Below are positions 37,868 through 63,176 of a stretch of 64,000 bases of DNA, piece after piece. Under the pieces are notes generated by a model. It searched no databases. It saw nothing but the letters and a program-made list of their open reading frames with translations, and had not been told where the DNA came from. Position 1 is the first letter of the stretch. Each line of letters begins with the position of its first letter. The stretch comes from Promethearchaeota archaeon (lineage in GTDB: Archaea; Asgardarchaeota; Lokiarchaeia; Sigyniarchaeales; SOKP01). The translations under genes were made by a program, and so were the position numbers. The DNA is taken from the NCBI GenBank assembly GCA_016839765.1, contig JAEOTP010000068.1:27218-91217 (forward strand), read 5' to 3'.

Positions 37868-37944
37868 TATCGTTTGAATAAAATCTGAACTTTACTACAA
37901 TATATATAATGATTTTTATAATAAATAATATTAATAATACTATT

Positions 37945-38361: not shown

Positions 38362-38364
38362 AAT

Positions 38365-38871: not shown

Positions 38872-38936
38872 TTTCTTGTAATTTAAATAATCTAATTGAA
38901 AAAACTTTTGGCATAAATCAAGAATTTTATTATTAT

Positions 38937-40016
38937 TTAGATAATAATGAATGAGATAAAAAATAACACGGTTGATATAATAGAATTGTAAGTAAGATTA
39001 TCATCAATTTCTAAGTCTAAAAAATCTAACAATCCAATTAATAATGCACCAATCGAAGGTAATAAGAATATACTTAATAAATTTAATATTGATAATCCAT
39101 TTAAGAGTAATAAAACAATTATCCCAGAAAAGAAAGCAACAACTATTCCAGCAATTAATCCTGCATAAGTTTTATTTGTATTTCGAATTTTTTTATGACC
39201 AAATGTTCTCCCAAATAGATTAGCAGTCATATCACCAAAAATTGCCATTGTCATAGAAGTGCAGATTATTAAAGGGCCGATAGGTTGGATCACTCCATAA
39301 ATTATGATGATCGAAAAACACCCAATTCCCATAGAAATATGGGGGCCAAATCTCATGTGGCGTTCTTTCTCTCTTAGAATTCTATTAACAGGTTTTAAAG
39401 GATATACCTCTGGTTTCAATATCCTTATGAATTCTGCTGTGAAAAATCCAATTAAAGAAATTCCAACTAAGCATACTACTAAATATTGTGTAAAAATCAT
39501 ATTGGGTATATTATTATAAATTGAAAAAAATAATTCAGAGAAAAATGGCGGTAATAACTTGAATAAATAAACAAATAAATTCTGAACGAGGAATCCCAAT
39601 GTAAAATAGAAAAAGATAATTCCTAGTACTATTAAGTGGGATAATTTTCTGTAAATCTCATATTTTAATGGCAATTCTTTGGGAGTTAATAAATCATTTT
39701 TTCTTGTATTAGGTTTTCCTAGGCTAACTTTTTTCTTTTCCCTATGAATTAAAAGATAAAAAAAGGGTAAAAATAACAAAATGAAACCCAGTATAAGAAT
39801 ATCAAAAGGATATATAATCAAATCTATACTAGTTATATGAAGTAGATTAATTATTACTAAATTAATTGAGATGCTTATTAGGAAAACCAATGAATTAATC
39901 AGATTATTAAGGAATGCTCCCTTTTCACCCTTCTTTTTAGTAAGATAGGTAATATAGAATAAAATTAAGCCATATAGAGAAAAAATTCCTACTATAATGT
40001 ATGATAGCAAATCCAA
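38937..40016 (-). CDS. CTP-dependent lipid kinase-like (dolichol/diacylglycerol kinase family) membrane protein, left-arm copy
   Basis: RKLSHLIVLGIIFFY...MTMAIFGDMTANLFGRTFGHKKIRNTNKTYAGLIAGI; paralog 57838-58833. Confidence 0.75.
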   Translation of the reverse strand: MDLLSYIIVGIFSLYGLILFYITYLTKKKGEKGAFLNNLINSLVFLISISINLVIINLLHITSIDLIIYPFDILILGFILLFLPFFYLLIHREKKKVSLGKPNTRKNDLLTPKELPLKYEIYRKLSHLIVLGIIFFYFTLGFLVQNLFVYLFKLLPPFFSELFFSIYNNIPNMIFTQYLVVCLVGISLIGFFTAEFIRILKPEVYPLKPVNRILREKERHMRFGPHISMGIGCFSIIIIYGVIQPIGPLIICTSMTMAIFGDMTANLFGRTFGHKKIRNTNKTYAGLIAGIVVAFFSGIIVLLLLNGLSILNLLSIFLLPSIGALLIGLLDFLDLEIDDNLTYNSIISTVLFFISFIII

Positions 40017-40115
40017 AGATTACAATTCTCGTGAGATTTTAATAATGTTAATGATCTTTATAATTTTAAGATTTACTGTAAAATTATTATCAAGAAAGAA
40101 AGAAAAAAAAATAAT

Positions 40116-41516
40116 TTAAAATTGATTTTCATCGATTATTGGCATATCTGGAGAAGCTAATGCTTTCTTAATATCTTCTTTTGGTAATTCATAATCTTCT
40201 AACTTACCGCTCATGAATTCTTTGTATGCTAATAAATCAAAAAATCCATGACCACTGAAATTGAATACGATTACCTTTTTCTCATTATTCTCTTTTGCTT
40301 TTAAGGCTTGATTTATTGCTTCTTTTACCGCATGAGCAGTTTCTGGTGCGGGTAAGATTCCTTCTGTTTGAGCGAATTTAAGACCTGCTTCAATAATTTC
40401 TGTTTGGTGAAGCATTGAAGTTGAAATGATATTGTTGTTAGATAAAATTGAAATAATAGGCGCCATTCCATGATATCTTAATCCTCCCGCATGTATTGGA
40501 CTAGGAATAAATGTATGCCCCAGAGTATACATTTTTAATATTGGTGCTTTTTTTGCAGTATCTCCAAAATCCCATCTATATTCTCCTTTGCAAACGCTTG
40601 GGCAAGCTCTTGGTTCTACCCCTATTATTTCTAAATCTGGACATTTCCCCTGTAATTTATCTTTTACGAATGGAATTGCAAATCCTCCAAAATTCGAACC
40701 ACCACCCATACAACCTATGAGAATATCTGGCTCTAATCCGATTTTTTTTAGTTGTACTTTAGTCTCTTGGCCGATTATAGTTTGATGTAAAAGTACAAAA
40801 TTTACCACACTTCCTAGTGAATAGCGTATTTTATCACTCCTTAGACTATGTTCAACTGCTTCAGATATTGCAATGCCTAAGCTTCCAGGATGATCTGGAT
40901 TAATGTCATAAAATGTTCTTCCGGCATCGGTATGTTTTGAGGGACTTGCATGAATTGCTGCATTATATGCTCTCATTAATATCTTTCTACCAGGCTTTTG
41001 GATAAAGCTCGCTCTTACCATGTAAACAGTACATTTTAATCCATATATATTACATCCATAAGAGAGCGCTGAACCCCATTGTCCTGCTCCGGTTTCAGTG
41101 ACAAGCTCCTCAATTCCTTGTATTCCCGCATAATAAGCTTGAGCTAGAGCCGTATTAGGCTTATGGGATCCTGTAGGAGAAACTGATTCATTTTTAAAGA
41201 AGATTTTTATTCTACCATCATTTATACCAAGCATTTTTTCTAAACGGACTGCTCTGTGAAGAGGTGTTGGACGATATGTTGTAGCATAGATTTCTCTTAG
41301 CTCCTTTGGGATACTAATCGTATTATCTTGAGATACCTCTTGTAACACGCATTCTTTAGGAAAGATCGCAAAAGCTAATTCTGGAGGTGCCGGTTTTCCG
41401 TCCATAGGATTAATTAAAGGCGTTATAGGTGATGGTAAATCTGGAAGAATGTTTATCCATTCTTTAGGAACTTCGTTTGGATCTAATAAAACTCTTGCAT
41501 TAAAATTTTCTAACAT
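40116..41516 (-). CDS. trpB2: TrpB2-type tryptophan synthase beta-like protein, left-arm copy
   Basis: TYRPTPLHRAVRLEK, ESVSPTGSHKPNTALAQ, ETGAGQWG, GCMGGGSNFGG; paralog 56312-57727. Confidence 0.92.
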   Translation of the reverse strand: MLENFNARVLLDPNEVPKEWINILPDLPSPITPLINPMDGKPAPPELAFAIFPKECVLQEVSQDNTISIPKELREIYATTYRPTPLHRAVRLEKMLGINDGRIKIFFKNESVSPTGSHKPNTALAQAYYAGIQGIEELVTETGAGQWGSALSYGCNIYGLKCTVYMVRASFIQKPGRKILMRAYNAAIHASPSKHTDAGRTFYDINPDHPGSLGIAISEAVEHSLRSDKIRYSLGSVVNFVLLHQTIIGQETKVQLKKIGLEPDILIGCMGGGSNFGGFAIPFVKDKLQGKCPDLEIIGVEPRACPSVCKGEYRWDFGDTAKKAPILKMYTLGHTFIPSPIHAGGLRYHGMAPIISILSNNNIISTSMLHQTEIIEAGLKFAQTEGILPAPETAHAVKEAINQALKAKENNEKKVIVFNFSGHGFFDLLAYKEFMSGKLEDYELPKEDIKKALASPDMPIIDENQF

Positions 41517-41674
41517 TTAAATCACCGTTTTACATTTTTAGTTAAAAATGCTACATCTTTATATTGGAATTCAATATAATTGACGCATAATTGGCAAAAC
41601 AATTAAGATAATACAAAGAGAGGGAAATTATGTGATAGAAAGAAAAATTTGATTTAATCCAATGAAGGCGTAAC

Positions 41675-41745
41675 TAAAAACGCCAAGGCCACTGCCAACG
41701 CCAAAAAGTATTTTTTTCAGTAGCCATTGATAAAATCATTGTTGT
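41675..41745 (-). promoter_or_regulatory. Conserved stem-loop in the trpB2 upstream region, left-arm copy
   Basis: Transcript sense GGCTACTG-...-CAGTGGCC (8-bp stem including one G-U), followed by TTGG; matching element at 56112-56155. Confidence 0.5.
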
Positions 41746-41831
41746 TTTGTTATTAACAAAATAACAAAACTTATAAATTTAACTTTTTTTACCAAAAATA
41801 ATTTTTTTTACCAAAAATATCAAAAATCAAT

Positions 41832-42245
41832 TTATCTTCCTTCAAAGATTTTTGCTAAATTTTTTGCTGCAACTCTCATTACTTTAACGGTTTTCATTAA
41901 TGTGTCGATGAGTGTTCCAGCACATACAATTACTAATGGGCCTGCATTACTTACAACTATGTAGCCATTTTGGGCTCTTACAATTATTTCACTTAATTCT
42001 TCTTGAAACAGTGTCTGAATTGTTGAGCTACCAGTCATTAGTAGAGCACTTGCGAGCCCACAAAATTGATCGCCATCAACATGATATTGGGGAAGCGCAG
42101 AAAATGCAATTTGATACCCCTCCTGAGAAACAAGTGCAATTGCTTCAATGTCAGCATTAGAAGTTATAAATGTAATTTGAGGACTTATTTTTTCAATATC
42201 CTCATCAGTAATTCCAAGATCACTTCCGAACTGAATCCAAATCAC
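41832..42245 (-). CDS. Roadblock/LC7-domain protein, left-arm copy
   Basis: ADIEAIALVSQEGYQIAFSALPQYHVDGDQFCGLASALLMTGSSTIQTLFQEELSEIIVRAQNGYIVVSNAGPLVIVCAG; GTG start. Confidence 0.85.
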   Translation of the reverse strand: MIWIQFGSDLGITDEDIEKISPQITFITSNADIEAIALVSQEGYQIAFSALPQYHVDGDQFCGLASALLMTGSSTIQTLFQEELSEIIVRAQNGYIVVSNAGPLVIVCAGTLIDTLMKTVKVMRVAAKNLAKIFEGR

Positions 42246-42331
42246 CTTTCTTGGGATAAATGAAAATAGAACCTTTATCTTAGTAATTTTTTAAAATTCT
42301 TTTTATTTATATATTTTCATTAAAATTCAAT

Positions 42332-42601
42332 TTATTTATAAAATTGTCTTTTCTTGTCTTCTTCTGATTTAGACTCTTCTTTTTTCTTAAAGTATTTTCT
42401 AAGCATGAAATAATTTATAATCATACCAACAAGTTCAACTAAAATACCAACAAATGCAATAATTGTTCCACCGAATTTGAGATGTCTTAATAATAAAGCA
42501 ACACCTAAACCGGAGGAACTAAATACAAACAAAAGAAAACCTTTAATGATTTGAGAAAAAGAGATTCTTAATTGGGTCAACTCTTTTTTGATCAAAGACA
42601 T
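42332..42601 (-). CDS. Protein C: small 2-TM membrane protein, left-arm copy
   Basis: SFSQIIKGFLLFVFSSSGLGVALLLRHLKFGGTIIAFVGILVELVGMIINYFM matches 49604-49879. Confidence 0.75.
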   Translation of the reverse strand: MSLIKKELTQLRISFSQIIKGFLLFVFSSSGLGVALLLRHLKFGGTIIAFVGILVELVGMIINYFMLRKYFKKKEESKSEEDKKRQFYK

Positions 42602-42675
42602 AACTTAAATAATTTTTTATAGATTTTAAATTTGGTTAAATAAATAGTTCTCTATTAAATACTTTGTATCTTACT

Positions 42676-45075
42676 CTAAATATTTCTTCTTTTCTTTTTA
42701 AATTTAATATATAGAGCATTATCTAATATTTTTCCAATTTTAAGAGCAATATTTTTAGCAATCAAATATCTTTCCCCATCAAGCATGGATTTTATCTCAT
42801 TATGACTCGGCTTATGAGTTAACCTTTCAATTAATACATTTTCCACTAATAATTCGACAGAATCCTCAATTTGCTTGTAATCAGGTAAATTTATATCAAG
42901 TTTAAATGATTTTATTTTCTCGACGACAAAATTATAATATTCACAAAATCTCGTATAAGGATCATCATTTAATTCACTATGCAGTTTAATATTATCTGTT
43001 GCTATCTTAGTGTCTTTTTCTTGCCAATAAAATTGATTAGGATTTATTCCAGGGCGATTTATCCCCATCAACGAGGATGTTATACGTCTTTCTATCCAAT
43101 TAAAGGTACTTTCTTTCTGCTTTTCACGGATTTCTTCTTTTTTTATTTCCTTTTCTCTTTTTTCAATCTCAATGACTTTCTTAACTTTAGATTTACGTTT
43201 TTCCTCGAACACTTCTAGTCTTTTTATTAATTCAAATGCGATACAATAAGAGATAGGGGAAATTAAATCTGCTTGTAATTTCAATGGCTTAATATTTTCG
43301 TATATTAAGCTTGGATTTTCCCTTAATTCGATTATACATTCTTGAAGAGGTTTGTCTGTTAACCTTGATAAAATAAAACCATTCACTAGGAAAACTTGAT
43401 TATTCGCATTAAATACAATAACTAATTCTTTTTGTCTTCTTATTATTCGTTTAATTATTAATTCTTCTAATTTAATATTTATCCAATCTTCATATTCTAA
43501 AGTTCCCTCTATTTTTTTTAAAGCTTGTAATATTAATCCCTTGTCATTATTAATTTTGTTATACGATTCAATTATCCTACTTAATTGTCTAAGGATTTTT
43601 GATAATATATAATAAAAAATATCTCTTATCAAATTATCAATAACTTCTTCAAAACTTAAGAGTGTAATTATTTGATTATAATTACTCATCCCTAGTTCTT
43701 TTAGAAAAACTTTATCAATAATTTGCTTCTTTCTTACAAACTCTCTGAGGTCGTTAATTGATCCTCCCATTTTCTTTTCCAATAACTCCCATAATTTTTT
43801 TAGTTGTAAGTCATCTCTATACAAAAATTTAGAAAGATTAAATTCAGATATATTGTCAAAGCCTCCTAATATTCTTTCTATATAAGGAAAATTAAGTCCT
43901 ACAATCTCCTTTTTCGCTAGATTAACTAAATTTTTATTTTTATCATTTAATGCTAAAAAATCCTGTTTTTTTATATTAAATTTGATCATATTTTTCTTTA
44001 TTTCCGAAATTAAATCATTATCAACATTGATTAAATGCATAATATCATAAATTCCACGTTTATTTAACTGATACATAATTTCATCAAAAGAATATTCATA
44101 AAGGCTTTGTATTAAGTAGATAAAGTCATTTGGGTTAGTTTTAAGTTGTTTTACTATCAATTTTTTTAAAAAATTTAAAGTGCTATTCTCAAAATCTTCA
44201 TAAATTATCCTCTCTTGAAGAGCTTTATTTATAAGATTTAATAACTCCATTTTTATTGAATTGCCTTTTAAGAATGCTCTCAAACCTGGAACTGAAACTG
44301 GATATTTATTAAATTCATAATCCAAAATTTTCTTTTTAATCATCCTAACTGGCATAGCTTCAACTTGGAGCTCCTTATAAGATTTAAATTCGTAATCCCT
44401 GTGAATAACTTTTATCAATCGATTGAGTGTTGATAATTCGATGAATTTATCTTCCTTTTCTTTCTTATCTAATTTTTTTTCAATATCAACAGACAGATCT
44501 TTGAATGCTGATTCTTCTTCTAGGATTTCTCTCTTTATATGATTATTTAGACCAATTATATCTCCTAATAAATCATAGAAGTAAAAAGGAGGATATTTTC
44601 TAATTATCTCCAATAATTCAAACTCGATCTTTTGATCTATTTCCTTTAGTTTTTCATTTTTTTGATAGTCATTAAAAGAAGATACTCTTTCTTCAATTAA
44701 GAAAGATAAGAATAGATTTTCTAGAGTTATTATTTTATAGAGTAAATCAATCTCTAAATCGAAAGAATTTTTTAGTAATAATTCAACTTCGTTCATCAGA
44801 GTCTCTTTTTCATTAATTTCTAAGTCCCCTACAACTTTATCAGAAAAATGCTCAGATTCAAAATCTTGTGGAAATCTAACTCCAAAATTATGATACAAAT
44901 GAACTGATGCAGTTGCAACTAACAATATACTAAGATTTGGAGAAGAATCGGTCAGTTCAAAGATTTTTTGCCTATCTGCAGGTCTTTTAAAGTGTGAGAG
45001 AATTAAATCAATAGTTTGGAAGTATCTATAAGTACTTTCTATAGCAGTTGTTTTTCTTTTAATACCACTTATCAT
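42676..45075 (-). CDS. Protein B: 799-aa soluble protein, unknown, left-arm copy
   Basis: MISGIKRKTTAIESTYRYFQTIDLILSHFKR...; ATGA overlap with protein A stop; paralog 50035-52242. Confidence 0.8.
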   Translation of the reverse strand: MISGIKRKTTAIESTYRYFQTIDLILSHFKRPADRQKIFELTDSSPNLSILLVATASVHLYHNFGVRFPQDFESEHFSDKVVGDLEINEKETLMNEVELLLKNSFDLEIDLLYKIITLENLFLSFLIEERVSSFNDYQKNEKLKEIDQKIEFELLEIIRKYPPFYFYDLLGDIIGLNNHIKREILEEESAFKDLSVDIEKKLDKKEKEDKFIELSTLNRLIKVIHRDYEFKSYKELQVEAMPVRMIKKKILDYEFNKYPVSVPGLRAFLKGNSIKMELLNLINKALQERIIYEDFENSTLNFLKKLIVKQLKTNPNDFIYLIQSLYEYSFDEIMYQLNKRGIYDIMHLINVDNDLISEIKKNMIKFNIKKQDFLALNDKNKNLVNLAKKEIVGLNFPYIERILGGFDNISEFNLSKFLYRDDLQLKKLWELLEKKMGGSINDLREFVRKKQIIDKVFLKELGMSNYNQIITLLSFEEVIDNLIRDIFYYILSKILRQLSRIIESYNKINNDKGLILQALKKIEGTLEYEDWINIKLEELIIKRIIRRQKELVIVFNANNQVFLVNGFILSRLTDKPLQECIIELRENPSLIYENIKPLKLQADLISPISYCIAFELIKRLEVFEEKRKSKVKKVIEIEKREKEIKKEEIREKQKESTFNWIERRITSSLMGINRPGINPNQFYWQEKDTKIATDNIKLHSELNDDPYTRFCEYYNFVVEKIKSFKLDINLPDYKQIEDSVELLVENVLIERLTHKPSHNEIKSMLDGERYLIAKNIALKIGKILDNALYIKFKKKRRNI

Positions 45076-47378
45076 AACTCTTTAATCCACTCCCTATAAA
45101 CCTCTTTAAAATTATCTGAAATTTCAAACTTTGACTTAGTATGCCAATATTTAAAATTAACAAGGTGAAACAAAGTACTTTTAAAAAGCTCTTTTTCTTC
45201 ATTTGTTAAAGTATGCTTTAAGATTATGCTTTTAGGTCTAGGGATTAGTTTTGAGAAATATTTCAATTCATTTTCGTTAATATATTTATATAATGTATCC
45301 TCTTCTGAAATATTTAAAAGTGTAATTGGAAGTACTTTGTTTTGATTCAATTTTAACAAATTAACTTCAGTTTCAATTTTTTTTTGAACATACTTCGGAA
45401 ATTCAAGTTTAATATCAATACAGAATTCAAATTTTTTAGAAAAATCTAATAGAAGATTTTTCTCTGTCTCATCTAATACCTTAACAATATACGTATCTAA
45501 AAATACTAAAAATTGTTTTTCATTTTGCTCAAAAGTTTCGCGTTTTTCAATATATTCAACAAAATCTGTATATGTCTCATTTAAACTCCAATCTCTTTTT
45601 TCTTCTATCTTAAAAAATCTTTTTGCATAATCTTTTATCCATTCTAAGACATAAGATTTCCAAATTAAATCTATTCCCCCCATTCTTTTTTCCAGAAATC
45701 GATAGAATTTATTTGCGAATGTAACTGGATCTGAGATTTCAATATCATTTTCTTCCTTTAAAAAGCGATTAATTGTTGAATACCTTAATATATAATTTAT
45801 TAAAAACCTTAATTCGTTTGAAAATTTCTCAAAATTATTTAAATGCTTTTTAATTAAACCAGAATTACTTTCCATTTGTACTTCCGCAAAGGCTACTAAA
45901 TCACTAATACTTAATTTTACTTCTTTTATAAAAGAGGAAAGTGTTTCAATTACAATTTTTTTAAACTCTTTTATAAGTAAATTCAAATCAAAAAGATAAT
46001 CTTTTATCAAGGTAATTGAATTAAATTCAATTTTATTGAGGAGAACACTTTTAAATTTAGAAATTAAATTTTGACCTAGTGCTTTCACTGGTTTTTGTTC
46101 TTTATCAAACTTTTCATTTAAATTACTAATGAGAATATTTACTAAGAAAATCAATTCTCTGCGATAAAGAAAACGAGGTAAAGATTTCCTCATTAAGTTA
46201 AAGTTATTTTTAAAAATTTCAGCAAAGTAATTTACTGCTGAATTTAATTCTATAGCAATTAAATCTTCATCTTTTCTAATTGATTGATTTATTGAGAAAC
46301 TTGCTAATTCAAATAAATCTCTATAATTATAATTTCCTTGATCATTCTTCTTCTCTATGAAGTTATCAAACTTTTTTAAAAGATGGGTTGAATCACCCTT
46401 TTCGCCAGAAGCAAGAAACTCATTAGATACTTCTAAAAATTTATTTAATTTCTTTTCCATTCGATTAAAAAAATCTTCAAAGTAAGATGTTATCCATTCA
46501 ATGGAACAGTTTTCTTGATATGCTCCAACTTCCTCTCTAATTTTTTTAATTAAATAGAATAAAATTCTATCTTGAGATTCATCTATCGTACCAGTGTTAG
46601 CTAATTTCATAAGATTTGTCCCCAATTTTAATGTATTTTCAACCAAAAAATTAGCACTAGGGACGGAGATTAAGTATTTTAGGTGTTCTATGGCCATTTG
46701 GTCATCAAATGGAGACTGGAACTTTTCATATTCGGGATTAAAAAAGTTAAGCTCAAAAGGATTTTTATTCCAAAAAAATTCTACGTCATTTTTTATAGAG
46801 CCATATGTTTTTAACATATCTTCATCAGTGGGGAGGGAGATATTTATTCCAATCAGTTTTTTGTTCCATTTATCTTCAATTAATTCACCATACAGTTTTT
46901 TACTAAAGCGTTCAGCAAAACTTTCTAATAATCTAATCTTCCCTTCCCTGTCTAATTCGGGATGATCTGTGAATTCTTCTACTTCAAAAAACAATTTACT
47001 AATATCATCAATGGATTCCTTGGATTTATGAGTATCTAAATAGCCAGTATCCGGTTTTAAGGCAAGAAGTAAACTTTCACAATCTTTATAATTTCCCGGA
47101 ATCAATAACATAGATTTTGGATAAATATTGATTCTAGCATCCTTCTCATCAAAATTAAATAATTCAAACTCAGCGTAGAATAATTCAGAACCCGTATAAT
47201 CTCTCAATATTGCATTGTACATTCTCAAAAATCTGATAACTTCTTGTGATAATTCATTTACTCTAACACTTGTTAACTTACCTGGACCCAAAACATTTCC
47301 CACAATGATATCTTTTGGACTAGAATAACCAAAAATCAATGAAAATTGATAATTAATAGATTCTCTTGTTGTTATCAT
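45072..47378 (-). CDS. Protein A: 768-aa soluble protein, unknown, left-arm copy
   Basis: MITTRESINYQFSLIFGYSSPKDIIVG...; paralog 52224-54530 of identical length. Confidence 0.8.
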   Translation of the reverse strand: MITTRESINYQFSLIFGYSSPKDIIVGNVLGPGKLTSVRVNELSQEVIRFLRMYNAILRDYTGSELFYAEFELFNFDEKDARINIYPKSMLLIPGNYKDCESLLLALKPDTGYLDTHKSKESIDDISKLFFEVEEFTDHPELDREGKIRLLESFAERFSKKLYGELIEDKWNKKLIGINISLPTDEDMLKTYGSIKNDVEFFWNKNPFELNFFNPEYEKFQSPFDDQMAIEHLKYLISVPSANFLVENTLKLGTNLMKLANTGTIDESQDRILFYLIKKIREEVGAYQENCSIEWITSYFEDFFNRMEKKLNKFLEVSNEFLASGEKGDSTHLLKKFDNFIEKKNDQGNYNYRDLFELASFSINQSIRKDEDLIAIELNSAVNYFAEIFKNNFNLMRKSLPRFLYRRELIFLVNILISNLNEKFDKEQKPVKALGQNLISKFKSVLLNKIEFNSITLIKDYLFDLNLLIKEFKKIVIETLSSFIKEVKLSISDLVAFAEVQMESNSGLIKKHLNNFEKFSNELRFLINYILRYSTINRFLKEENDIEISDPVTFANKFYRFLEKRMGGIDLIWKSYVLEWIKDYAKRFFKIEEKRDWSLNETYTDFVEYIEKRETFEQNEKQFLVFLDTYIVKVLDETEKNLLLDFSKKFEFCIDIKLEFPKYVQKKIETEVNLLKLNQNKVLPITLLNISEEDTLYKYINENELKYFSKLIPRPKSIILKHTLTNEEKELFKSTLFHLVNFKYWHTKSKFEISDNFKEVYREWIKEL

Positions 47379-47608
47379 AATTAGAAAATAAAAAAAAATA
47401 ATTTTGCAAAGATACTAGTTAAAAAATTTAAATAATTTATAGTTGAATTAGTATTAAAATTTAAGCTGATCATAAGAAGATTTACATATTAAATAGTCAT
47501 TTATTTATTACAACCTTTTAGCCTACTATGACAGGTTTAAACCTCGTATCTTGCAACATCAATTAAGAGTTTCGCAGGGATCTGAAAATATATAAACCAA
47601 CTCCTATT

Positions 47609-48355
47609 TCATAATATAGCATAATTTTCCCATAATCTTTCCTTTACATTATGCGATATTAAATAATCCTTAATATCGGTTAATAATATATTTGGATCAA
47701 ACTCCCAAGCAGCATATTCGTTAAATGATAAGCATTTTAAATTCTCAATATTTAATACTGATTTCAATAAAAGCCCATAAGTAGCAACCTGAGGTAAAGA
47801 AAACATAAAATTTCCTTCAGGCTTATAATCAATCACTTTAACTGTATTATGTTGAATTTGAATCAGATCAATATGCCCAGTAATAGAATTTTTACCAACC
47901 CTTTTCCAAATAGGGATCTCAATAGCAACTGAATCCTTATCTTTAATTAAAATATATTTTAAAACAGGACCATGCCCTGGTTTTTGCCCAATTCCGTCAT
48001 TCTTAAAATTTGCATGAACCTTCCGAGCATATTGAGGTAAATTTGAATTTGAATCAAAATACTCAATTTTTCCCTCCCGGATTAGCTTTTTGGCAAAATG
48101 ATTAATAAATATCGACTTTATCCCGGTGATCTTAAATCTAGATACTCGAGGTAATGATTTTGAGTTAAATAAATTATTTGGAATCTTCCCTTGATAAATT
48201 CGATTAAAATATTTCCCTAAAAGTACAAACTCAGATCGATAAGGATTTAATTGGAAAACTTTTTGCTTATGATGTTCAATATTCCAATTAAAAACATATG
48301 GAATTTGTTGATGAACAAAAACTCGATTTCTAATTGATTGTTGATATGAACTCAT
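47609..48355 (-). CDS. PD-(D/E)XK nuclease, RecB/Cas4-like, left-arm copy
   Basis: VAIEIPIW, GHIDLIQ, VKVIDYKPEG, QVATYG (QxxxY); no 4-Cys cluster. Confidence 0.8.
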   Translation of the reverse strand: MSSYQQSIRNRVFVHQQIPYVFNWNIEHHKQKVFQLNPYRSEFVLLGKYFNRIYQGKIPNNLFNSKSLPRVSRFKITGIKSIFINHFAKKLIREGKIEYFDSNSNLPQYARKVHANFKNDGIGQKPGHGPVLKYILIKDKDSVAIEIPIWKRVGKNSITGHIDLIQIQHNTVKVIDYKPEGNFMFSLPQVATYGLLLKSVLNIENLKCLSFNEYAAWEFDPNILLTDIKDYLISHNVKERLWENYAIL

Positions 48356-48506
48356 CTAGTCAATATTTATGTTTTAAATTTAAAAAAACATTTATATTAA
48401 TGATTTATTAATTTGTAAAGTTGTTCTTAAATTTTTTTATTCCTAGAATTAAGGGAATTGAAATCTAAAAAGTTTTATTTAAAAAACTCAGCATAAAAAA
48501 TTAAAA

Positions 48507-48611
48507 CGGACCCGGCAGGATTCGAACCTGCGACTTTCGGATTAGAAGTCCGACGCCCTATCCATACTAGGCAAGCTAGGCTGGCTAGCTGGCTGGCTAG
48601 GCTATAGGTCC
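48507..48611 (-). tRNA. tRNA-Arg(TCT) with ~29-nt GCCTAGC-rich insertion in the D-loop; functional status uncertain
   Basis: Reverse strand: anticodon arm TCGGA-CTTCTAA-TCCGA, T-arm GCAGG-TTCGAAT-CCTGC, 3' acceptor CGGGTCC; 5' acceptor GGACCTA gives an A7-C66 mismatch; D-stem GCCT/GGGC encloses about 39 nt. Confidence 0.75.
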
Positions 48612-48866
48612 TTGCTTTATAAAATAAAGATTTTATATTTTATAAAATATCCTTTATGATGTTTAAAGTTTATTATGACTTGTTGTTGCTCTTCTCTTAT
48701 TAAGAAATTAAAAAATAATTTTCTATTTCTGAAAATAGACTCATTAATTTCTTGATGAATTAATAAATTATTAATACATTTTATTTAATAAAATACAACA
48801 TTAAATTATAATTAAGACATATATTGAATATATAAACGTGATTTGGTAATATAAAAGAGAGTATTA

Positions 48867-49592
48867 ATGGAGCTTAAACAAAAACATTTTGTACATCAAA
48901 ACATACCCTATTCTTTCAATTGGAATAAGATTCATCATAAACAAAAATTTTATCAAATAATTGCTAATCGAGAAGAATTAAATAGACTTAAAGCACATTT
49001 TAAAAGAGTAGCTGAAGGGAAAATTCCGAATAGGTTATTTAATTCTCGAGATCTTCCAAGAGTTTCTCAATTTAAAATTAGAGGTATTAAGCCAGCTTTT
49101 ATTAGAAGTTTTAGTAAAAGTTTAATTCGTTCAGGGAAAATAAAGCGTTTTGATTCCAATTCAAAATTATCCTTGTATGCTCAGAGAGTATTTGAAAGTT
49201 ATAAAGAAAGTGGATTCAGAGGAGACCCTGGACATGAACCAATTTTAAAAAACATTTTAATTAAAGATAAGGACTCTGTAGCAATAGAAGTTCCGATTTG
49301 GAAGGAAGAAGAAAACAAAACCATTACAGGGCATATTGATTTGATTCAAATTGAAAATAATGCTGTTAAAGTAATTGATTACAAACCAGAAGGAAAATTT
49401 TTACTCTCTTTACCCCAAGTAGCAATGTACGGTATTTTATTTAAATCGAGATTAAATATTAAGACGGTAAAATGCGTTTCTTTCAATAAAGAAGAAGTTT
49501 GGGAATATGATCCAAAAACGTTATTGTCTGAAGTTAAAGAATATTTAATTTCTCATCATATTAATGAAAGGCCATGGGAAGATTTCATATAA
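48867..49592 (+). CDS. PD-(D/E)XK nuclease, RecB/Cas4-like, right-arm copy
   Basis: VAIEVPIW, GHIDLIQ, VKVIDYKPEG, QVAMYG. Confidence 0.8.
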   Translation: MELKQKHFVHQNIPYSFNWNKIHHKQKFYQIIANREELNRLKAHFKRVAEGKIPNRLFNSRDLPRVSQFKIRGIKPAFIRSFSKSLIRSGKIKRFDSNSKLSLYAQRVFESYKESGFRGDPGHEPILKNILIKDKDSVAIEVPIWKEEENKTITGHIDLIQIENNAVKVIDYKPEGKFLLSLPQVAMYGILFKSRLNIKTVKCVSFNKEEVWEYDPKTLLSEVKEYLISHHINERPWEDFI

Positions 49593-49603
49593 AGGGAATC
49601 TAT

Positions 49604-49879
49604 CTAGAGCTTCTTTCCTTTTGGTTTTGAGGGTTCAGGTTCTTCCCTAGGTTTCACATACCCTTTAAACATGAAATAACATAAAAGTAAGGCTACTAAT
49701 TCTGTAGCAACACCAAGAAAAGAAATAATTGTACCATTATATCCCAGATATCTCAATACTAATGCAAAACCTAAACCTGAAAATGCTAAAATAAATAAAA
49801 TAAATCCTTTTATGATTTCTAGGAAGGAATCTTTAATATATCCAAGTTCTTTCTTAATCCAAGTAAAAATTGAAGCCAT
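49604..49879 (-). CDS. Protein C: small 2-TM membrane protein, right-arm copy
   Basis: SFLEIIKGFILFILAFSGLGFALVLRYLGYNGTIISFLGVATELVALLLCYFMF. Confidence 0.75.
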   Translation of the reverse strand: MASIFTWIKKELGYIKDSFLEIIKGFILFILAFSGLGFALVLRYLGYNGTIISFLGVATELVALLLCYFMFKGYVKPREEPEPSKPKGKKL

Positions 49880-50034
49880 AAGATGATTCTACTTCTATAT
49901 AATTTTAAATAAATTAAATAAATATCATTTTAATATCTTTGTTATTTTCTAAAGATTTATCTAAATATTCAAATCAGAAATGATTATGATTAAACTATAC
50001 TTATCGATATTAACCTAAAGTTTTTGAGATAGTC

Positions 50035-52227
50035 TTAGCTCCTTTGTTTACTTTTAAATTTAGAATATAATGCCTTATCTAACAATTTGCCTATTCTTTG
50101 GGCAATTTGTTTACCAATTTCATATCTTTCACCATCAAGTAAATTTCTCATTGCTTCTGGGGTAGGATTGTTCCCTAATCTTCTAAACAAAACTTTTTCT
50201 GTTATTTCATTTACCATATCTTTAATTTTTCCATAATCAGGTAAATTAATATTGGGATTAAAGCTTTTGATTTTCTCTATTGCAAATTGAAAAAATTGAC
50301 TAAATAACTCGATTGGATCACCTTTTAATTCACTATGAAGTTTAATATTATCAGTAGCTATTTTTGTATCTTTTTCTTGCCAATACAACTGATTTGGATT
50401 GATACCTGGACTATTTATTCTCATAAGTGAACTTGTAATTCGGCGTTCAATCCAATTTAATGTACTAACTTCCTGTTTTTCACGTATTTCCTTCTTTTTT
50501 TCTATTTTTTCTTTTTCTTTAGATTCTATAATTTGTTCTACTTTCGATTTACGTTGTTCTTCAAGGTCTTCAAACCTTTTAATTATATCATATCCTATAC
50601 AGTAAGAAATTGGTGAGATTAGATCTGATTTTAACTTTAATGACGATATCCCGGTATATACGTGACTATTCTTCTCTTTTAATTCTAAAATTCCCTCTTT
50701 TAAAGGAATACCCATCAATCGTGCCAATATAAAACCATTAATTAAAAATGGTTGATTATCCGCATTAAATACTATAACTAACTCTTCTTGTCTCTTATTT
50801 AATTTTTCTATTATTAATTCCTCTAACTTAACCCTAACCCATTCTTCAGAATCAGTAGTTCCAAATATTTTTCTTAAAGCTAAAAGAAATAATGTTTTAT
50901 CATTTGAAATTTTAAGATATAGCTCAATAATCCGACTAAGTTGTCTTAGTATTTTTGATAACATATAAAAAAATATGTCTTTCACTAATTTGTCCATGAT
51001 ATCTTCAAAATCTAACACAAATAAGATATGAGCATAATTTTTTAATCCTAATTCTTTTAAAAAGACCTTCTCAATAACTTGCTTTTTTCTTAGATCATTT
51101 GGATCTATAAGATCATGTTTTGTTATATTATATCTGACCATATTTCTCCTTACTTCTTCAGTAATGGACTCGTCTATATCCATGAGATATAAGATATTGT
51201 AGACTCCATATCTATTTAACATAAAGATTAAATCATTGAAACTACATTCATTTAGGCTCTGTAGAAAATAAATGAAATCATTTGGATTAATTTTCAGTTG
51301 TTTAAATAACTCAGATTTTAAGAAGCTCAAAATATTTTGTTCAAATTGGTCATAATTAATTTTTTCTTTTAGAGCATTTTCTATTCTCTTTAACAGTTCT
51401 TTTTTAAGGTTGTTTGTTTCTTTAAAGATTTTTAGTCCGGGAATGGAAATTGGGAACCGATCAAAGTTATAATCAAAAATTCTTCGTTTTATCATTCTAA
51501 CTGGCATTGCCTGTACCTGCAATTCCTTATATGATTTGAATTCGAAGTCTTTTCGGATTTTGTCAATCATTCGACTTAAGGTTGCTAATTCGATAAACTT
51601 ATCTTCTTTCTCTTCTCGTTCTAATTTTTTTTCAATTTCTAGTGATAAATCTTTAAAAGCAGAACTTTCCTCTAGGATTTGTAATTTAGTTTCGTCAGTT
51701 AATCCTATCAAATCGCCGATTAAATCATAAAAATAAAAAGGTGGGTAATTTAATATAATTTCTAATAATTCTTGTTCAACTTTTTGTTCAATTTCATTCA
51801 ATATTTGCTTCTTTTGAAACTCTGGAAGTGTAGATTCTCTTTCTTCAATTAGATATGATATAAATCTATTCTCTAAATCAAATATCTTATTAAGAACCCC
51901 AATTTCTAATATGAATGAATCTTTTAATAATGTATCAACTTCTTCTATTAAAATCTTTTTTTCAATGTGCTCTAAATTTTTAGTTGACTCAAAGGAAAAT
52001 TTATCTTGCTCTAAGGTTTCTTTAACTCTAATACCTAAGCTGTGATAAATATGAATTACAGCTGTAGCAATTAAAAGATCTTTGAAAGTGGTTTTTTGAC
52101 TTGTTAATTCAAATATTTTTTGCTTATCTGCATCTCTCTTAAAATGGGAAATAATTAAATCTACAGTTTGAAAAAATCTAAATGTACTTTCAACCGCGGT
52201 TGTCTTTCTTTTTATCCCACTAATCAT
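50035..52227 (-). CDS. Protein B: ~730-aa soluble protein, unknown, right-arm copy
   Basis: MISGIKRKTTAVESTFRFFQTVDLIISHFKR...; start at 52227 gives the same ATGA overlap with protein A as in the left arm. Confidence 0.8.
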   Translation of the reverse strand: MISGIKRKTTAVESTFRFFQTVDLIISHFKRDADKQKIFELTSQKTTFKDLLIATAVIHIYHSLGIRVKETLEQDKFSFESTKNLEHIEKKILIEEVDTLLKDSFILEIGVLNKIFDLENRFISYLIEERESTLPEFQKKQILNEIEQKVEQELLEIILNYPPFYFYDLIGDLIGLTDETKLQILEESSAFKDLSLEIEKKLEREEKEDKFIELATLSRMIDKIRKDFEFKSYKELQVQAMPVRMIKRRIFDYNFDRFPISIPGLKIFKETNNLKKELLKRIENALKEKINYDQFEQNILSFLKSELFKQLKINPNDFIYFLQSLNECSFNDLIFMLNRYGVYNILYLMDIDESITEEVRRNMVRYNITKHDLIDPNDLRKKQVIEKVFLKELGLKNYAHILFVLDFEDIMDKLVKDIFFYMLSKILRQLSRIIELYLKISNDKTLFLLALRKIFGTTDSEEWVRVKLEELIIEKLNKRQEELVIVFNADNQPFLINGFILARLMGIPLKEGILELKEKNSHVYTGISSLKLKSDLISPISYCIGYDIIKRFEDLEEQRKSKVEQIIESKEKEKIEKKKEIREKQEVSTLNWIERRITSSLMRINSPGINPNQLYWQEKDTKIATDNIKLHSELKGDPIELFSQFFQFAIEKIKSFNPNINLPDYGKIKDMVNEITEKVLFRRLGNNPTPEAMRNLLDGERYEIGKQIAQRIGKLLDKALYSKFKSKQRS

Positions 52228-54530
52228 AGTTCCTTTAACCACTCCCTATAAACTTCTTTAAAATTATCTGCTAATTCAAATCTAGAATTAGTATGCCAAA
52301 ACTTAAAGCTTAATACATGAAAAAGATCTCCCCCAAACAATTCTTTCTCTTCGCTTGTTAAATTGTGTTTTAAAATTAGAGTTAATGGTCTAGGGATCAA
52401 TTTTGAAAAATATTTTAACTCCAACTCTTTAATATAATCATAAAAGTGGTCCTCACCACTTATATTAAAAAAGTTGATAGGAACTTGCTCTTCAAATTGA
52501 GGACTAAGTATACTTACTTCTTGTTTAATTTTATTACTAACATACTTCGGAAATTCAGTACTAATATTTATGCTTAAATCATATTGCTTATAAAAATCAA
52601 TTAATAACTTCTTTTCCTCAATATTTGATATACGCGCTATATACGTATCTAAAAATTTTAAAAAATGCTCAAGCTTTTGCTCATTTGATTCTCTTTCTTC
52701 AAAATAGCTAATAAAATCATTATATATCTCATTCAAAGTCCAATCTTTTCTTTCTTCTACGTTAAAGAATTTTTTGGTATAATCATTTATCCATTCTAAA
52801 ATATAAGATTTCCAGGTTAGATTAATTCCTCCAATTCGTTTTTCTAAAAACCGATGAAATCTAGTGGCAAATGTAACTGGATCGGCTATCTCTTTATCAG
52901 GTTCCTCTTTTATATACCTATTAATTGTTGTATATCTAAGAATATAGCTTAATAGATAAGATAACTCACTCGAAAAAGTCTTAAATTTCTCTATATGCTC
53001 TTTTATAATATTAATATCTTTATCCATTTGTATTTCCGCAAAAGATACTAAATCTCCCATATCTAGTTTTATGTTGTTGAAAAATGGTTCAATATTTGTA
53101 TTAATTAATCTTCTAAACTCTTTTATTATAATTTCTTCATTAAATTTAAGAAACTCCGATAAAACCATTGGATTATCTTCAATTTGGTTAAAAATATGAT
53201 CTTTAAACTTTTCTATCAATTTGTGACCAAGGGTTTTCGCTGGTTTTTGTTCGCTTTCGAATTTTTGCTTTAAATTTTTTGTTAAATCAATAATTAAGGA
53301 TTTTAACCTCCTACGTGAAAGATATTTTGGAAGAGATACCTTTACCAAATTAAGACTACTTTTAATAATTTCTGAAAAATAATTAAAAATAGAGCTTAAA
53401 TCTATCGCTCTTAAGTTTGTTTTTGTAATTGCTGATTGATCAATTGATTTAATTGCTAAATTACAAATACCTTCAAAATCTTCATTTTCAAATTTAGCTT
53501 TATTTACAATAAAGTGCTTATATTTTTTTAATAATTCAGGTAAATCTCCAATTTCTCCAGTTGTAAGAAAAGAGTTAGAATATTCAATGAATTTATTTAG
53601 GTATCTTTCTAAATCGATTAAAATTCTATTAATAAAGGAAATTAACGATTTTGCTGTGCAAGGATCTTTTAAGTTATGTGTTTTTTGCTTAATATAGTTA
53701 ATAATAAACGAGACTACTCTATCTTGAGATTCATCAATTGTACCTGTATTTGCTAAATTAATTAAATTTGCTCCTAACTTTAATGTTTTATCCACAATAA
53801 AATTAGCACTAGGCTCTGATATAGAATATTTTATATGTTCTATGGATTGTTGCCCCTCAAAAGGGCTTATCAATCTCTCGAAAGTTGAATTGAAAAGGTT
53901 AATCTCATATGGTCGCTTGTGTAATAATATATCTACATCTGATTTGACTCTTGCATAAGTATTTAACATTTCTTTTTCTGTTGGAAGCGAAGCACTTACA
54001 CCAATTAACTTTTTATTCCATTTATCTTCAATTAATTCTCCAAAGAGTTTTTTGCTAAATCTAGTAGCAAATCTCTTATATACTTGTAGTTTATCTTCAC
54101 TTTTTAATTCAGGTCGATCTGTAAATTCTTCTACTTCAAAAAATAACCTACTTATATTGTTTATAGCTTCACGGGATTTATGGGCATCCAAATATCCTGT
54201 TTCAGGTTTTAATGCAAGCAATAAACTCTCACAGTCTTTATATTTGCCGGGTACGAAAATCATTGATTTTGGGAAAATATTTACTCGAGCACTTTTTTCA
54301 TCGAGGTTATATAACTCAAATTCGATACTAAAGACTTCTGAACCAGTATAATCTCTTAAAATTGCATTATACATCCTTAAATATTCTATTACACCTTGTG
54401 AAAGTTCATTCACTCTTTCTCTAGTTAATTTTCCAGGACCAATTACATCTCCAACAATGAGATCATTTGGAGAAGAATAACCAAATATAAGTGAAAATTG
54501 ATAATTAATTGATTCTCGTGTAGTTATCAT
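52224..54530 (-). CDS. Protein A: 768-aa soluble protein, unknown, right-arm copy
   Basis: MITTRESINYQFSLIFGYSSPNDLIVGDVIGPGKLTRERVNELSQGVIEYLRMYNAILRDYTGSE. Confidence 0.8.
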   Translation of the reverse strand: MITTRESINYQFSLIFGYSSPNDLIVGDVIGPGKLTRERVNELSQGVIEYLRMYNAILRDYTGSEVFSIEFELYNLDEKSARVNIFPKSMIFVPGKYKDCESLLLALKPETGYLDAHKSREAINNISRLFFEVEEFTDRPELKSEDKLQVYKRFATRFSKKLFGELIEDKWNKKLIGVSASLPTEKEMLNTYARVKSDVDILLHKRPYEINLFNSTFERLISPFEGQQSIEHIKYSISEPSANFIVDKTLKLGANLINLANTGTIDESQDRVVSFIINYIKQKTHNLKDPCTAKSLISFINRILIDLERYLNKFIEYSNSFLTTGEIGDLPELLKKYKHFIVNKAKFENEDFEGICNLAIKSIDQSAITKTNLRAIDLSSIFNYFSEIIKSSLNLVKVSLPKYLSRRRLKSLIIDLTKNLKQKFESEQKPAKTLGHKLIEKFKDHIFNQIEDNPMVLSEFLKFNEEIIIKEFRRLINTNIEPFFNNIKLDMGDLVSFAEIQMDKDINIIKEHIEKFKTFSSELSYLLSYILRYTTINRYIKEEPDKEIADPVTFATRFHRFLEKRIGGINLTWKSYILEWINDYTKKFFNVEERKDWTLNEIYNDFISYFEERESNEQKLEHFLKFLDTYIARISNIEEKKLLIDFYKQYDLSINISTEFPKYVSNKIKQEVSILSPQFEEQVPINFFNISGEDHFYDYIKELELKYFSKLIPRPLTLILKHNLTSEEKELFGGDLFHVLSFKFWHTNSRFELADNFKEVYREWLKEL

Positions 54531-54733
54531 GACTCAAAATAAATAAAAATCTTATTTCTTTAATCATTAAATCATAACTATTATAATTCTTACTGAAATT
54601 GCGAAAAAATTTAGGAATTATTTTTAATATTTTTAAGTTTATATAATATTAAAATTTACTTTTGAATAGTAAATAAATTAATTTCATAAAAATTTATATT
54701 TAAAATTCTAATATAGTAGATAGATGGAAAAAA

Positions 54734-55405
54734 TTGTCGGAGATCCTTCTTAATCAACTCATAGAGAAATTGGACGAGGTACTCTTAGGAAGAAGAGATA
54801 TTATATCTGAGATTGAAAAACTAAAGGATGCAATAGAAAAGATTCAGAGTGAGAAAAAAGACAATACAGGAATTCAAATCACGAATACTGTAAATGAAAT
54901 AAAAGTTTTTATGTCAAAGTCCACCAATGTTTTATCTGAACTTAATAATAATATGAGAAATTTACAAAATTTAATAATTTCCCTCAATAATGTTTTTGAT
55001 ACAATTTTAAGTACAATAAATATCCCCGAATCGTTTACGGCTAGTGAAATTTCAACAAAACCTCAAAAAATTGGAACTTCAACTAGATATGAAAACAATT
55101 TATCTGCTCCTATAAGATCTCCAAGTGAATCAATATCACCAAGTGCTCCTGAAAAATCATTAGATATTTTAGGAGATTCAGACTTTAAGTTAATTATTTC
55201 TATAGCTAAATCCAATAATCCGGCAGTTGAAATAGCGATAATGCTTGAAAAAATAAGAGCAAAATTAGAAAACGAGAATCCCTTAAACCCTATCTTGTTT
55301 GAATTAAGCATGGAATCAAGGCGACTAAAATCTTTAGGAAATATACCACTTGACGCATATAATCTGCAAATTCTAATAGAGAAATTACAAAAATGGATTG
55401 GATAG
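54734..55405 (+). CDS. Coiled-coil protein, unknown, right arm only
   Basis: Heptad-rich N-terminal half, Ser/Pro linker, helical C-terminal domain; TTG start; no left-arm counterpart. Confidence 0.65.
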   Translation: MSEILLNQLIEKLDEVLLGRRDIISEIEKLKDAIEKIQSEKKDNTGIQITNTVNEIKVFMSKSTNVLSELNNNMRNLQNLIISLNNVFDTILSTINIPESFTASEISTKPQKIGTSTRYENNLSAPIRSPSESISPSAPEKSLDILGDSDFKLIISIAKSNNPAVEIAIMLEKIRAKLENENPLNPILFELSMESRRLKSLGNIPLDAYNLQILIEKLQKWIG

Positions 55406-55531
55406 CAATTGAAAATTATGGAATTTTATTTGAATTAAATTTTATCTTAACGAAAATAAATAAATAAATGGATTTTAATTAATTTAATATAAGTATAATC
55501 TAAAATTTTATATAAATTATCTAAAAGGTGT

Positions 55532-55942
55532 AGGCTTATACAATTTGGATCTGATTTAGGTATTAACCATGAAGATATAGAAAAAATAAGTCCGCAAATC
55601 ACATTTATAACATCTAATGCAGATATAGAAGCAATTGCACTTGTAAGCGTAGAGGGTTATCAAATAGCTTTCTCTGCTTTGCCCCAGTACCAAGTAGATG
55701 GTGATCAATTTTGTGGACTTGCTAGTGCTTTATTAATGACTGGAAGATCAACAATTCAAACATTATTTCAAGAAGATATAACTGAAATAATTGTAAGGGC
55801 TGAGAATGGATATATAGTTGTTACAAATGCAGGACGCTTAGTTATTGTATGTGCTGGGACAATTATTGATACTCTAATGAAAACGGTGAAAGTTATGCGA
55901 ATAGCAGCAAAGAATCTCTATAAAATTTTCGAAGGACGCTAA
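55532..55942 (+). CDS. Roadblock/LC7-domain protein, right-arm copy; start codon appears frameshifted
   Basis: Open frame from AGG CTT ATA CAA TTT GGA (RLIQFGSDLGINHEDIEKISPQITF...) aligns to the left copy from its second residue; the GTG at 55528 is one nucleotide out of frame. Confidence 0.75.
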   Translation, partial: RLIQFGSDLGINHEDIEKISPQITFITSNADIEAIALVSVEGYQIAFSALPQYQVDGDQFCGLASALLMTGRSTIQTLFQEDITEIIVRAENGYIVVTNAGRLVIVCAGTIIDTLMKTVKVMRIAAKNLYKIFEGR

Positions 55943-56111
55943 ATTATAAATTTTTCTTATTTTAAATCTTCACAGTTCTGTGTATTTAGTTGGGCATGAA
56001 AGTATTTTATTGTCTTAATTTTATAGAAAGTACTTTTTAGATCAATTAACTTTTTATTTAATAATAAATAGTTAAATCAATAATTTTTATTATGATAATA
56101 TGGTTTAATTT

Positions 56112-56155
56112 TATGGCAACTGGAAATTATTATTTTTGGCAGTGGCCTTGGTCTT
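56112..56155 (+). promoter_or_regulatory. Conserved stem-loop in the trpB2 upstream region, right-arm copy
   Basis: ATGGCAACTGGAAATTATTATTTTTGGCAGTGGCCTTGG; stem GGCAACTG/CAGTGGCC with one mismatch. Confidence 0.5.
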
Positions 56156-56311
56156 GGTTGTAAGACCCATTATATTGCCTTAAACCATACCTTACTTTCT
56201 CTCTTTTCTTAATTTTCGTTTTTCTAAATTATCGAATACTCTATTTAAATGTGCATTAATTATTTTGATTTCCAATTTAGTAATGAGACACAAAAAATAA
56301 GTTGATAAAAA

Positions 56312-57727
56312 ATGATAGTAAAGAAGGTAAAGTATTATAATTCAAGAATTATATTACAACCAAATGAAATACCAAAGCAATGGGTAAATATTTTACCAGA
56401 TTTACCCTCTCCCATGACGCCCTTAGTAAATCCTATGGATGGCAAACCCGCGCCACCAGAACTAGCATTAGCGATATTTCCAAAAGAATGCGTTATGCAA
56501 GAAATATCTCAAGAACCAACAATTCCTATCCCTAAGGATTTAAGGGAAATTTTCGCAAGAACTTATAGACCAAGTCCTCTACATCGCGCATTAGGATTAG
56601 AGAAAGAATTGGGAATAGAAGGTGATAATATAAAGATATTTTATAAAAATGAATCTGTTTCACCTACAGGTTCCCATAAACCAAATACAGCAATAACTCA
56701 AGCTTATTATGCAAAAAAGGATGGACTTGAAGAATTGGTCACGGAAACAGGAGCAGGACAATGGGGTTCAGGACTTTCTTATGGATGTAATTTGTTTGGA
56801 ATAAAATGTACTGTATATATGGTAAGAGTGAGTTTTTTACAAAAACCGGGAAGAAAAATTTTAATGAAGGCTTTTAATGCAGAAGTTCATCCAAGTCCTT
56901 CGAGATATACAGAATCAGGCAAAAAATTCTTAGAAAAAGATCCAGAACACCCCGGTAGTTTAGGAATAGCCATCTCTGAAGCATTAGAACATAGCTTAAG
57001 GAGTGATAAAATTAGATACTCTCTTGGAAGTGTTGTAAATTTTGTTCTTTTACATCAGACAATTGTAGGACAAGAAACTAAAATCCAACTAGCAAAAGTT
57101 GGTGTTGATAAACCTGATATAATAATAGGTTGTATGGGAGGTGGTTCTAACTTTGCTGGCTTTATGATCCCTTTTGCAAGAGATAAAATACATGGAGTTC
57201 TTCCAGATGTAGAAATTATTGGAGTTGAGCCACGAGCTTGTCCTAGTGTTTGTAAAGGTAAATATGGATGGGATTTTGGAGATACTTCTATGAAGGGTCC
57301 TATTATAAAAATGCATACTTTAGGTCATACATTTGTTCCAAGTCCTATTCATGCAGGGGGATTAAGATATCATGGGATGGCACCTATAGTTTCAATCTTA
57401 TATAATAATAGAGTTATATCTGCGTCTATGCATCATCAAACTGAAGTCATTAAATCCGGTCTTTTATTTGCAAGGGCTGAAGGAATACTTCCTGCCCCTG
57501 AAACAGCACATGCCGTAAAAGAAGCAATAGATCAAGCATTAAAAGCCAAAGACAATAAGGAAAAGAAAACAATCGTCTTTAACTTTAGTGGTCATGGCTT
57601 TTTTGATTTATTAGCTTATAAATTGTATATGACCGGTGATTTGGAAGATTATGAATTACCGACTGAAAAAATCCAAAAAGCATTATCATCAGAAGAAATG
57701 CCAAAAATTGATGAATCTCAATTTTAA
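56312..57727 (+). CDS. trpB2: TrpB2-type tryptophan synthase beta-like protein, right-arm copy
   Basis: ESVSPTGSHKPNTAITQ, ETGAGQWGSGLSYG, GCMGGGSNFAG. Confidence 0.92.
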   Translation: MIVKKVKYYNSRIILQPNEIPKQWVNILPDLPSPMTPLVNPMDGKPAPPELALAIFPKECVMQEISQEPTIPIPKDLREIFARTYRPSPLHRALGLEKELGIEGDNIKIFYKNESVSPTGSHKPNTAITQAYYAKKDGLEELVTETGAGQWGSGLSYGCNLFGIKCTVYMVRVSFLQKPGRKILMKAFNAEVHPSPSRYTESGKKFLEKDPEHPGSLGIAISEALEHSLRSDKIRYSLGSVVNFVLLHQTIVGQETKIQLAKVGVDKPDIIIGCMGGGSNFAGFMIPFARDKIHGVLPDVEIIGVEPRACPSVCKGKYGWDFGDTSMKGPIIKMHTLGHTFVPSPIHAGGLRYHGMAPIVSILYNNRVISASMHHQTEVIKSGLLFARAEGILPAPETAHAVKEAIDQALKAKDNKEKKTIVFNFSGHGFFDLLAYKLYMTGDLEDYELPTEKIQKALSSEEMPKIDESQF

Positions 57728-57837
57728 ATAATAATTTTAAATAATTTTTTTTCCTAAATAATCTAATTTTACTTTTAAAGAAAATCTTAAAAATGAAAGA
57801 ATCCTTAAAATATTCAAATTTAAGAGATTGGTAATTT

Positions 57838-58833: not shown

Positions 58834-58891
58834 GAGAAATTTAAGTTAATAAGAATTTACCATAAGTTTTTCAATAAGAATATTTTAATTA

Positions 58892-59401
58892 ATGAAAATG
58901 TTAGAAGAAAAATTAAAAATTGACAAAATCTCTAAAGGAACGGTAATTGATCATATTGATGCTGGTTATGCTCTAACCATACTTAATCTTACTGGATTAG
59001 ATGAATCTAAGAATTTAATGACTATAGGTGTTAATGTTTCTTCTAAAAAATACCAAACAAAAGATATTATTAAAATTGAAAATGTATTTCTAAACGAAAC
59101 TCAAATGCAACAAATTTCAATTCTCTCACCCAATGCAACTATTTCATTAATAGAAAATTATAAGGTAATTGAGAAGAAAAAAGTTAAAATTCCAAAAACA
59201 ATTAAAAAATTGATTATGTGTGTTAATCAAACATGTATTTCCAATTCAGGTGAGCCAATTGATACAGAATTTTACGTTTTAGAAGAAAAACCTTTAAAAA
59301 TTCAGTGTATATATTGTGAGCGAATATACAAACTCGAAGAAATTGTATTTACTTCTAAAGAAAAGAAAGAAAAGCAGGTAAAGCAAAGGATTCAATTGTA
59401 A
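58892..59401 (+). CDS. pyrI: Aspartate carbamoyltransferase regulatory subunit-like (PyrI), right-arm copy
   Basis: KIDKISKGTVIDHIDAGYALTILNLTGLDESKNLMTIGVNVSSKKY; Cys4 zinc site. Confidence 0.92.
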   Translation: MKMLEEKLKIDKISKGTVIDHIDAGYALTILNLTGLDESKNLMTIGVNVSSKKYQTKDIIKIENVFLNETQMQQISILSPNATISLIENYKVIEKKKVKIPKTIKKLIMCVNQTCISNSGEPIDTEFYVLEEKPLKIQCIYCERIYKLEEIVFTSKEKKEKQVKQRIQL

Positions 59402-59418
59402 TAAATCCTTAAATCCAC

Positions 59419-59859: not shown

Positions 59860-59929
59860 GTTATTAATATAAATAATTATTATTATAAAAATCATTATAT
59901 ATAATGATAAACAAAAGTACAGACAGAAA

Positions 59930-62734: not shown

Positions 62735-62758
62735 TATTTTAAGAATATCTTAAATCTT

Positions 62759-63175: not shown

Positions 63176-63176
63176 T

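Follow-up and report, generated by a model that had tools for sequence, protein, structure and literature searches.

An A-B-C gene module of Asgard archaea and its apparent doubling, most probably a misassembly, at a tRNA-Arg gene

Two sets of the same three genes lie in a 64,000-nucleotide stretch of Lokiarchaeia DNA (contig JAEOTP010000068.1, positions 27,218 to 91,217; hereafter the window), each coding for two large proteins, A and B, and a small two-TM protein, C, with a Roadblock/LC7 gene nearby. This arrangement raises the questions of whether one archaeon keeps two copies of an undescribed module, as the first-pass annotation had claimed, and what such a module may do. The genes concerned are listed below, and 'second species' marks the genes to the right of a putative join.

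41832-42236, minus strand: Roadblock/LC7 protein 1, 134 aa assuming a start at the ATT at 42236, which is preceded by AAAGGTG
42332-42601, minus strand: C1, 89 aa, two hydrophobic helices (two hydrophobic segments in orthologues)
42676-45075, minus strand: B1, 799 aa, predicted all-helical, ATGA overlap with A1
45072-47378, minus strand: A1, 768 aa, predicted alpha/beta N-terminus, helical middle and small alpha/beta C-terminus
47609-48355, minus strand: N1, PD-(D/E)XK nuclease-like, weak Pfam match below the cut-off, conserved neighbour
48508-48582, minus strand: tRNA-Arg(tct), probable join of the contigs of two species, left side as in L039 and right side as in L044 (both described below)
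48504-64000, no strand: probable foreign segment, 94.8% identical to JAHLWP010000037.1 (L044, isolate 9R3_44, another genus)
48867-49592, plus strand: N2, PD-(D/E)XK-like, second species
49604-49879, minus strand: C2, 91 aa, two-TM, second species
50035-52227, minus strand: B2, 730 aa, without a segment of ~69 aa present in B1, second species
52224-54530, minus strand: A2, 768 aa, second species
54734-55405, plus strand: X, coiled-coil protein of 223 aa
55538-55942, plus strand: Roadblock/LC7 protein 2, 134 aa, probable ATA start behind AAAGGTG, second species

The open reading frames of A1, B1, C1, A2, C2 and both Roadblock proteins lie where the first-pass annotation had placed them, A is indeed 768 aa long in both places, and each A-B pair overlaps by the four nucleotides ATGA. 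The lengths given earlier for B hold at the upper end (799 aa for B1), but B2, with its ATG at 52227 as start, has 730 aa and reaches 735 only from an upstream GTG. In addition, Roadblock 2 is longer than 87 aa, because the conserved frame extends upstream to 55538. The ~69-aa segment, about residues 378-446 of B1, is absent from B2 and from several g8 orthologues, so this part of B appears to be dispensable. A and B show no similarity to each other.

The doubling is not confined to A, B and C. In a comparison of the window with itself, 34.5-48.3 kb recurs inverted in 48.9-63.2 kb with 68-76% nucleotide identity, and the doubled unit spans ~12 kb from RqcH to the PD-(D/E)XK gene (RqcH, a membrane protein, PyrI, a protein we take to be DolK-like, a TrpB-like protein, Roadblock, C, B, A and the PD-(D/E)XK-like protein). 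A-B-C alone keeps the same strand in both halves, though the surrounding block is inverted. Nearly every genome of the genus has a single RqcH, and only this one has it full-length twice. The two halves have different closest relatives. Positions 35389-48572 match JAEOSD010000060.1 (L039), a contig of a sibling Lokiarchaeota MAG (G141), at 97.9% identity, and this contig runs on into other genes past the point matching 48572. Positions 48504-64000 match JAHLWP010000037.1 (L044) of isolate 9R3_44 (G120), which belongs to a different genus from the rest of the contig, at 94.8% in a single alignment of 15,510 columns (~15.5 kb). At the protein level, A1 and A2 share 57% of their amino acids, and A2 is 92.6% identical to its G120 orthologue. 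Genuine paralogy is not what these values show, copy 1 being 98% identical to G141 and copy 2 94.8% identical to G120.

The matches to L039 and L044 overlap in the window across tRNA-Arg only, and the join lies inside this gene, where 50 bp are exactly identical in both parents. Across the join, the window carries the flank and the 3′ part of the tRNA from L039, and then the tRNA insertion specific to L044 and its flank. Beyond the tRNA, both parents continue with the same stretch, containing tRNA-Ile and genes that we take to be kinase-like, Tgt-like and Trm5-like (68% match between the two), and neither version of this stretch is found in the bin to which the window belongs (G000). The orientation of the tRNA relative to the PD-(D/E)XK gene is opposite in the two parents, hence a misjoin through shared k-mers at the tRNA yields exactly the head-to-head product that is observed. 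Thus, the second A-B-C block is almost certainly due to a chimera, in which orthologous regions of two Lokiarchaeota species were misjoined at a common tRNA gene. The window would then hold one module, with 48504-64000 representing the orthologous region of another Lokiarchaeota genus, misassembled head-to-head at tRNA-Arg.

It may be argued that the second block is instead a real recent import, or a duplication, of the syntenic region at tRNA-Arg, which would give the cell two A-B-C sets. tRNA genes are known integration sites, and the contig contains no N at the join. However, the block brings with it the entire housekeeping neighbourhood of the other genus, no integrase was seen among its open reading frames, the foreign part reaches the end of the contig, the bin lacks the genes that lie past the tRNA in both parents, and the join falls in precisely the 50 bp that the parents share. 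We therefore regard a real import as hardly credible. Since the halves come from two species, their A, B and C genes are orthologues rather than maintained paralogues, and the earlier reading of two copies, both maintained, does not survive the finding that the whole ~12-kb region is doubled across the tRNA. The dN/dS between the copies, proposed in the first-pass annotation as a check, is 0.12-0.22, and because of the two-species origin it is an inter-species value. Only one other genome, G146, has two full A genes (L104, G146:C211:8000-22532). They are 89% identical in amino acids and enclose a truncated B fragment of 116 residues, beside Roadblock and near a contig end; this may possibly be another strain chimera.

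The module itself is real, and it is wider in distribution than could be seen from the window. In profile searches of 232 Asgard genomes, A homologues were found in 124, B homologues in 125 and both together in 123, the exceptions being A only in G102 and B only in G100 and G220. The genes are adjacent, tightly spaced or overlapping, in genome families f1, f2, f3, f4, f19, f20 and f28, so that the neighbourhood survey suggested earlier shows A and B co-occurring, and adjacent in nearly all genomes examined. Close orthologues have dN/dS of 0.13-0.23, which indicates purifying selection. Nine f1 genomes (G111, G113, G116, G121, G125, G126, G131, G148 and G157) are without A, B and Roadblock alike, and some of these are 90-99% complete; either the locus was lost in them or its sequence is missing. 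In f19 and f20, A is ~870-915 aa long, with a long coiled-coil insertion ahead of the C-terminus (L087, L089, L091 and L102).

Conserved neighbours may of course be kept together for expression only, without forming a complex, and C would then be unrelated. In accordance with this, A and B lie far apart in f7 (on C9 and C5 in G084, on C153 and C165 in G085), and within f1 the order of many adjacent housekeeping genes in the block is conserved as well. However, A-B is the only adjacency kept over f1-f4, f19, f20 and f28 while the other neighbours change between families, and the co-occurrence of A and B is near-perfect even in genomes where the genes are unlinked. An explanation by expression alone thus seems rather improbable to us.

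As far as Pfam, NCBIfam, PADLOC and PDB were searched, A and B are new families. Searches of these libraries, whether with single sequences or with profiles, gave no credible match to either protein, the best PDB sequence hit (E 0.011) being to a designed coiled coil. No known anti-phage defence system was recognized, since A and B of the window have no match in PADLOC; long A homologues match it in their C-terminal coiled-coil region only. With tblastn, neither A searched against plasmids nor B searched against phages gave a match, and scans of viral contigs with deep alignments gave no usable pattern. AlphaFold2 models reached a mean pLDDT of 76 for A (29 sequences; modelled on A2, the orthologue of A1) and 80 for B (28 sequences). 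The A model begins with an alpha/beta domain (residues 1-~220) and continues through a long helical part into a small C-terminal alpha/beta part, and the B model is all helical. When these predicted structures were compared with PDB by Foldseek, as the first-pass annotation had advised, the best E values were 0.29 and 0.31, which is no match; comparison with viral models returned noise only. The claim of a conserved, undescribed A-B(-C) module thus holds, given the co-occurrence in 123 genomes and the lack of any match among the curated families and solved structures searched.

The N-terminus of A deserves closer inspection. The order expected of a longin domain is beta-beta-alpha-beta-beta-beta-alpha-alpha, and A was compared with the description of longin in PMC10933270. 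In A, the model and the alignment, with its conserved hydrophobic strand-like segments, indicate beta-(beta)-alpha-beta-beta-beta-alpha-alpha, and the order over residues 1-~165 is compatible with longin, in a region that has pLDDT <50 in part (24-30 and 96-139) and no profile match. Profile searches with A, with B and with the N-terminal alignment of A gave no Robl or longin match. On the basis of the model, A possibly carries a longin/roadblock-like N-terminus on a helical arm.

Within the order, two families have protein C behind B, namely f1 and f3 (several genomes). Next to A, f7 and f20 have other two-TM proteins, and no two-TM neighbour was seen in f28. Relative to other f1 loci, G000 and G141 have A-B-C inverted as an intact unit between Roadblock and N, which themselves kept their places. 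This speaks for A-B-C as a unit to which Roadblock does not belong. Other neighbours are more restricted. Homologues of X have a conserved N-terminus and lie divergent to A in f7 and in G120 (L085, L086, L144 and L145); since genomes of f5/f6 that lack A have X as well, X does not belong to the core of the module. A HEAT-repeat protein gene directly after B is confined to f19, and f2 has at this place a 338-aa protein without a Pfam match, hence a HEAT link is not general. MfnB-like (4-HFC-P synthase), CutA, DHDPS-Fae and metallo-beta-lactamase neighbours are all family-specific.

The neighbouring Roadblock gene led to the earlier suggestion of a GTPase-regulating role, and A-B with this protein might form a complex like Ragulator or MglB. 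Roadblock 1 belongs to Robl_LC7 (PF03259; 33.2 bits against a cut-off of 23), and its ortholog adjoins A in f1 and f2. Asgard Roadblock and longin proteins form dimers resembling those in TRAPP and Ragulator (PMC10933270), and GTPases adjoin A/B in f20/f4 (f20/G164) and B in f7. However, Roadblock is beside A in f1 and f2 only, where it is normally divergent, it lies 23-130 kb from A in f3, and the A-B-C inversion altered its orientation relative to the module. The claimed linkage of A/B/C to Roadblock is thus true of f1 and f2, but it is loosened in f3, and the inversion left Roadblock behind. Moreover, the best relatives in f7 of the f20-type GTPase lie elsewhere in these genomes, indicating that the GTPase neighbours are not orthologous, and among the differing neighbours of f20, f4 and f7 no conserved linkage of A-B to an orthologous small GTPase was found. 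A GTPase-regulating role thus stands unsupported by these GTPases, and we consider such a complex unlikely.

Comparison with known systems gives likeness in part. In the MglA/MglB polarity module, as here, a Roadblock protein is involved, and in our case it is encoded beside A-B; the difference is that A-B has no linked orthologous GTPase, and A and B have no counterpart in MglA/MglB. Eukaryotic longin-containing regulators and large helical tethers include FLCN/FNIP, Mon1-Ccz1 and exocyst/COG. These may share with A-B a small alpha/beta domain with a long helical region and membrane docking, but in outline only, as neither Foldseek nor sequence searches matched them to A or B. Asgard Roadblock/longin/TRAPP-like proteins resemble the present system in their Asgard-wide occurrence, in the Roadblock gene adjoining A in f1/f2 and in the similar strand/helix order suggested for the N-terminus of A, and differ in that A and B are ~770-930 aa long, mostly helical and without sequence match to them (PMC10933270).

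The TrpB-linked Roadblock gene has a further peculiarity. A full-length open reading frame with ATG, GTG or TTG is found in only 9 of 28 f1 loci, as against 78-100% for the surrounding genes. At the homologous position, usually behind AAGGTG, many of the loci compared (L041-L068 and L147-L176) have ATT, ATA, ATC or ACG, and others have ATG, GTG or TTG. In L061, L062 and L064 a stop codon stands directly 5′ of the ACG. Roadblock 1 has an in-frame GTG three codons upstream of the ATT at 42236, and no in-frame ATG, GTG or TTG lies upstream in Roadblock 2. Purifying selection acts on the first 54 codons (mean pS 0.65, mean pN 0.09). Judged from sequence comparison, the gene appears to have a conserved initiation at near-cognate codons that its neighbours do not share. 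Bacterial infC, which starts at AUU, is a likeness to this start; no archaeal precedent was found among the titles and abstracts covered by a limited literature search.

In our model, A and B would be synthesised by tightly coupled translation as the obligate partners in a cytosolic two-subunit complex, and the two-TM hairpin C would dock this complex on the membrane in f1 and f3. A may hold out an N-terminal domain of longin/roadblock-like type on a helical arm, with B as a helical scaffold, so that A-B-C would form a membrane-bound assembly or tethering platform. A membrane-docked scaffold is a reasonable inference from C. Taken jointly, a single module with a misassembled second block and a membrane-docked A-B complex make up a reading that we favour, with some reserve. 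A much bolder version is a long shot: A-B-C as an Asgard-specific membrane-docked complex in which a large helical scaffold bears a fused longin/roadblock-like domain, acting together with a Roadblock protein whose near-cognate start is conserved, and as a prokaryotic counterpart of eukaryotic membrane tethering or GTPase-regulating complexes.

The chimera is a warning, as this contig would otherwise imply duplication of RqcH, PyrI, the TrpB-like gene and A-B-C. The near-cognate start of Roadblock, if real, would be an unusual case of archaeal initiation. A-B is present in the single-contig f3 genomes G089, G091 and G095, and may therefore be open to experiment in cultured relatives. Two large proteins that stay together over several Asgard families and match nothing in the libraries searched would point to an undescribed machine of the cell in the archaeal group nearest to eukaryotes.
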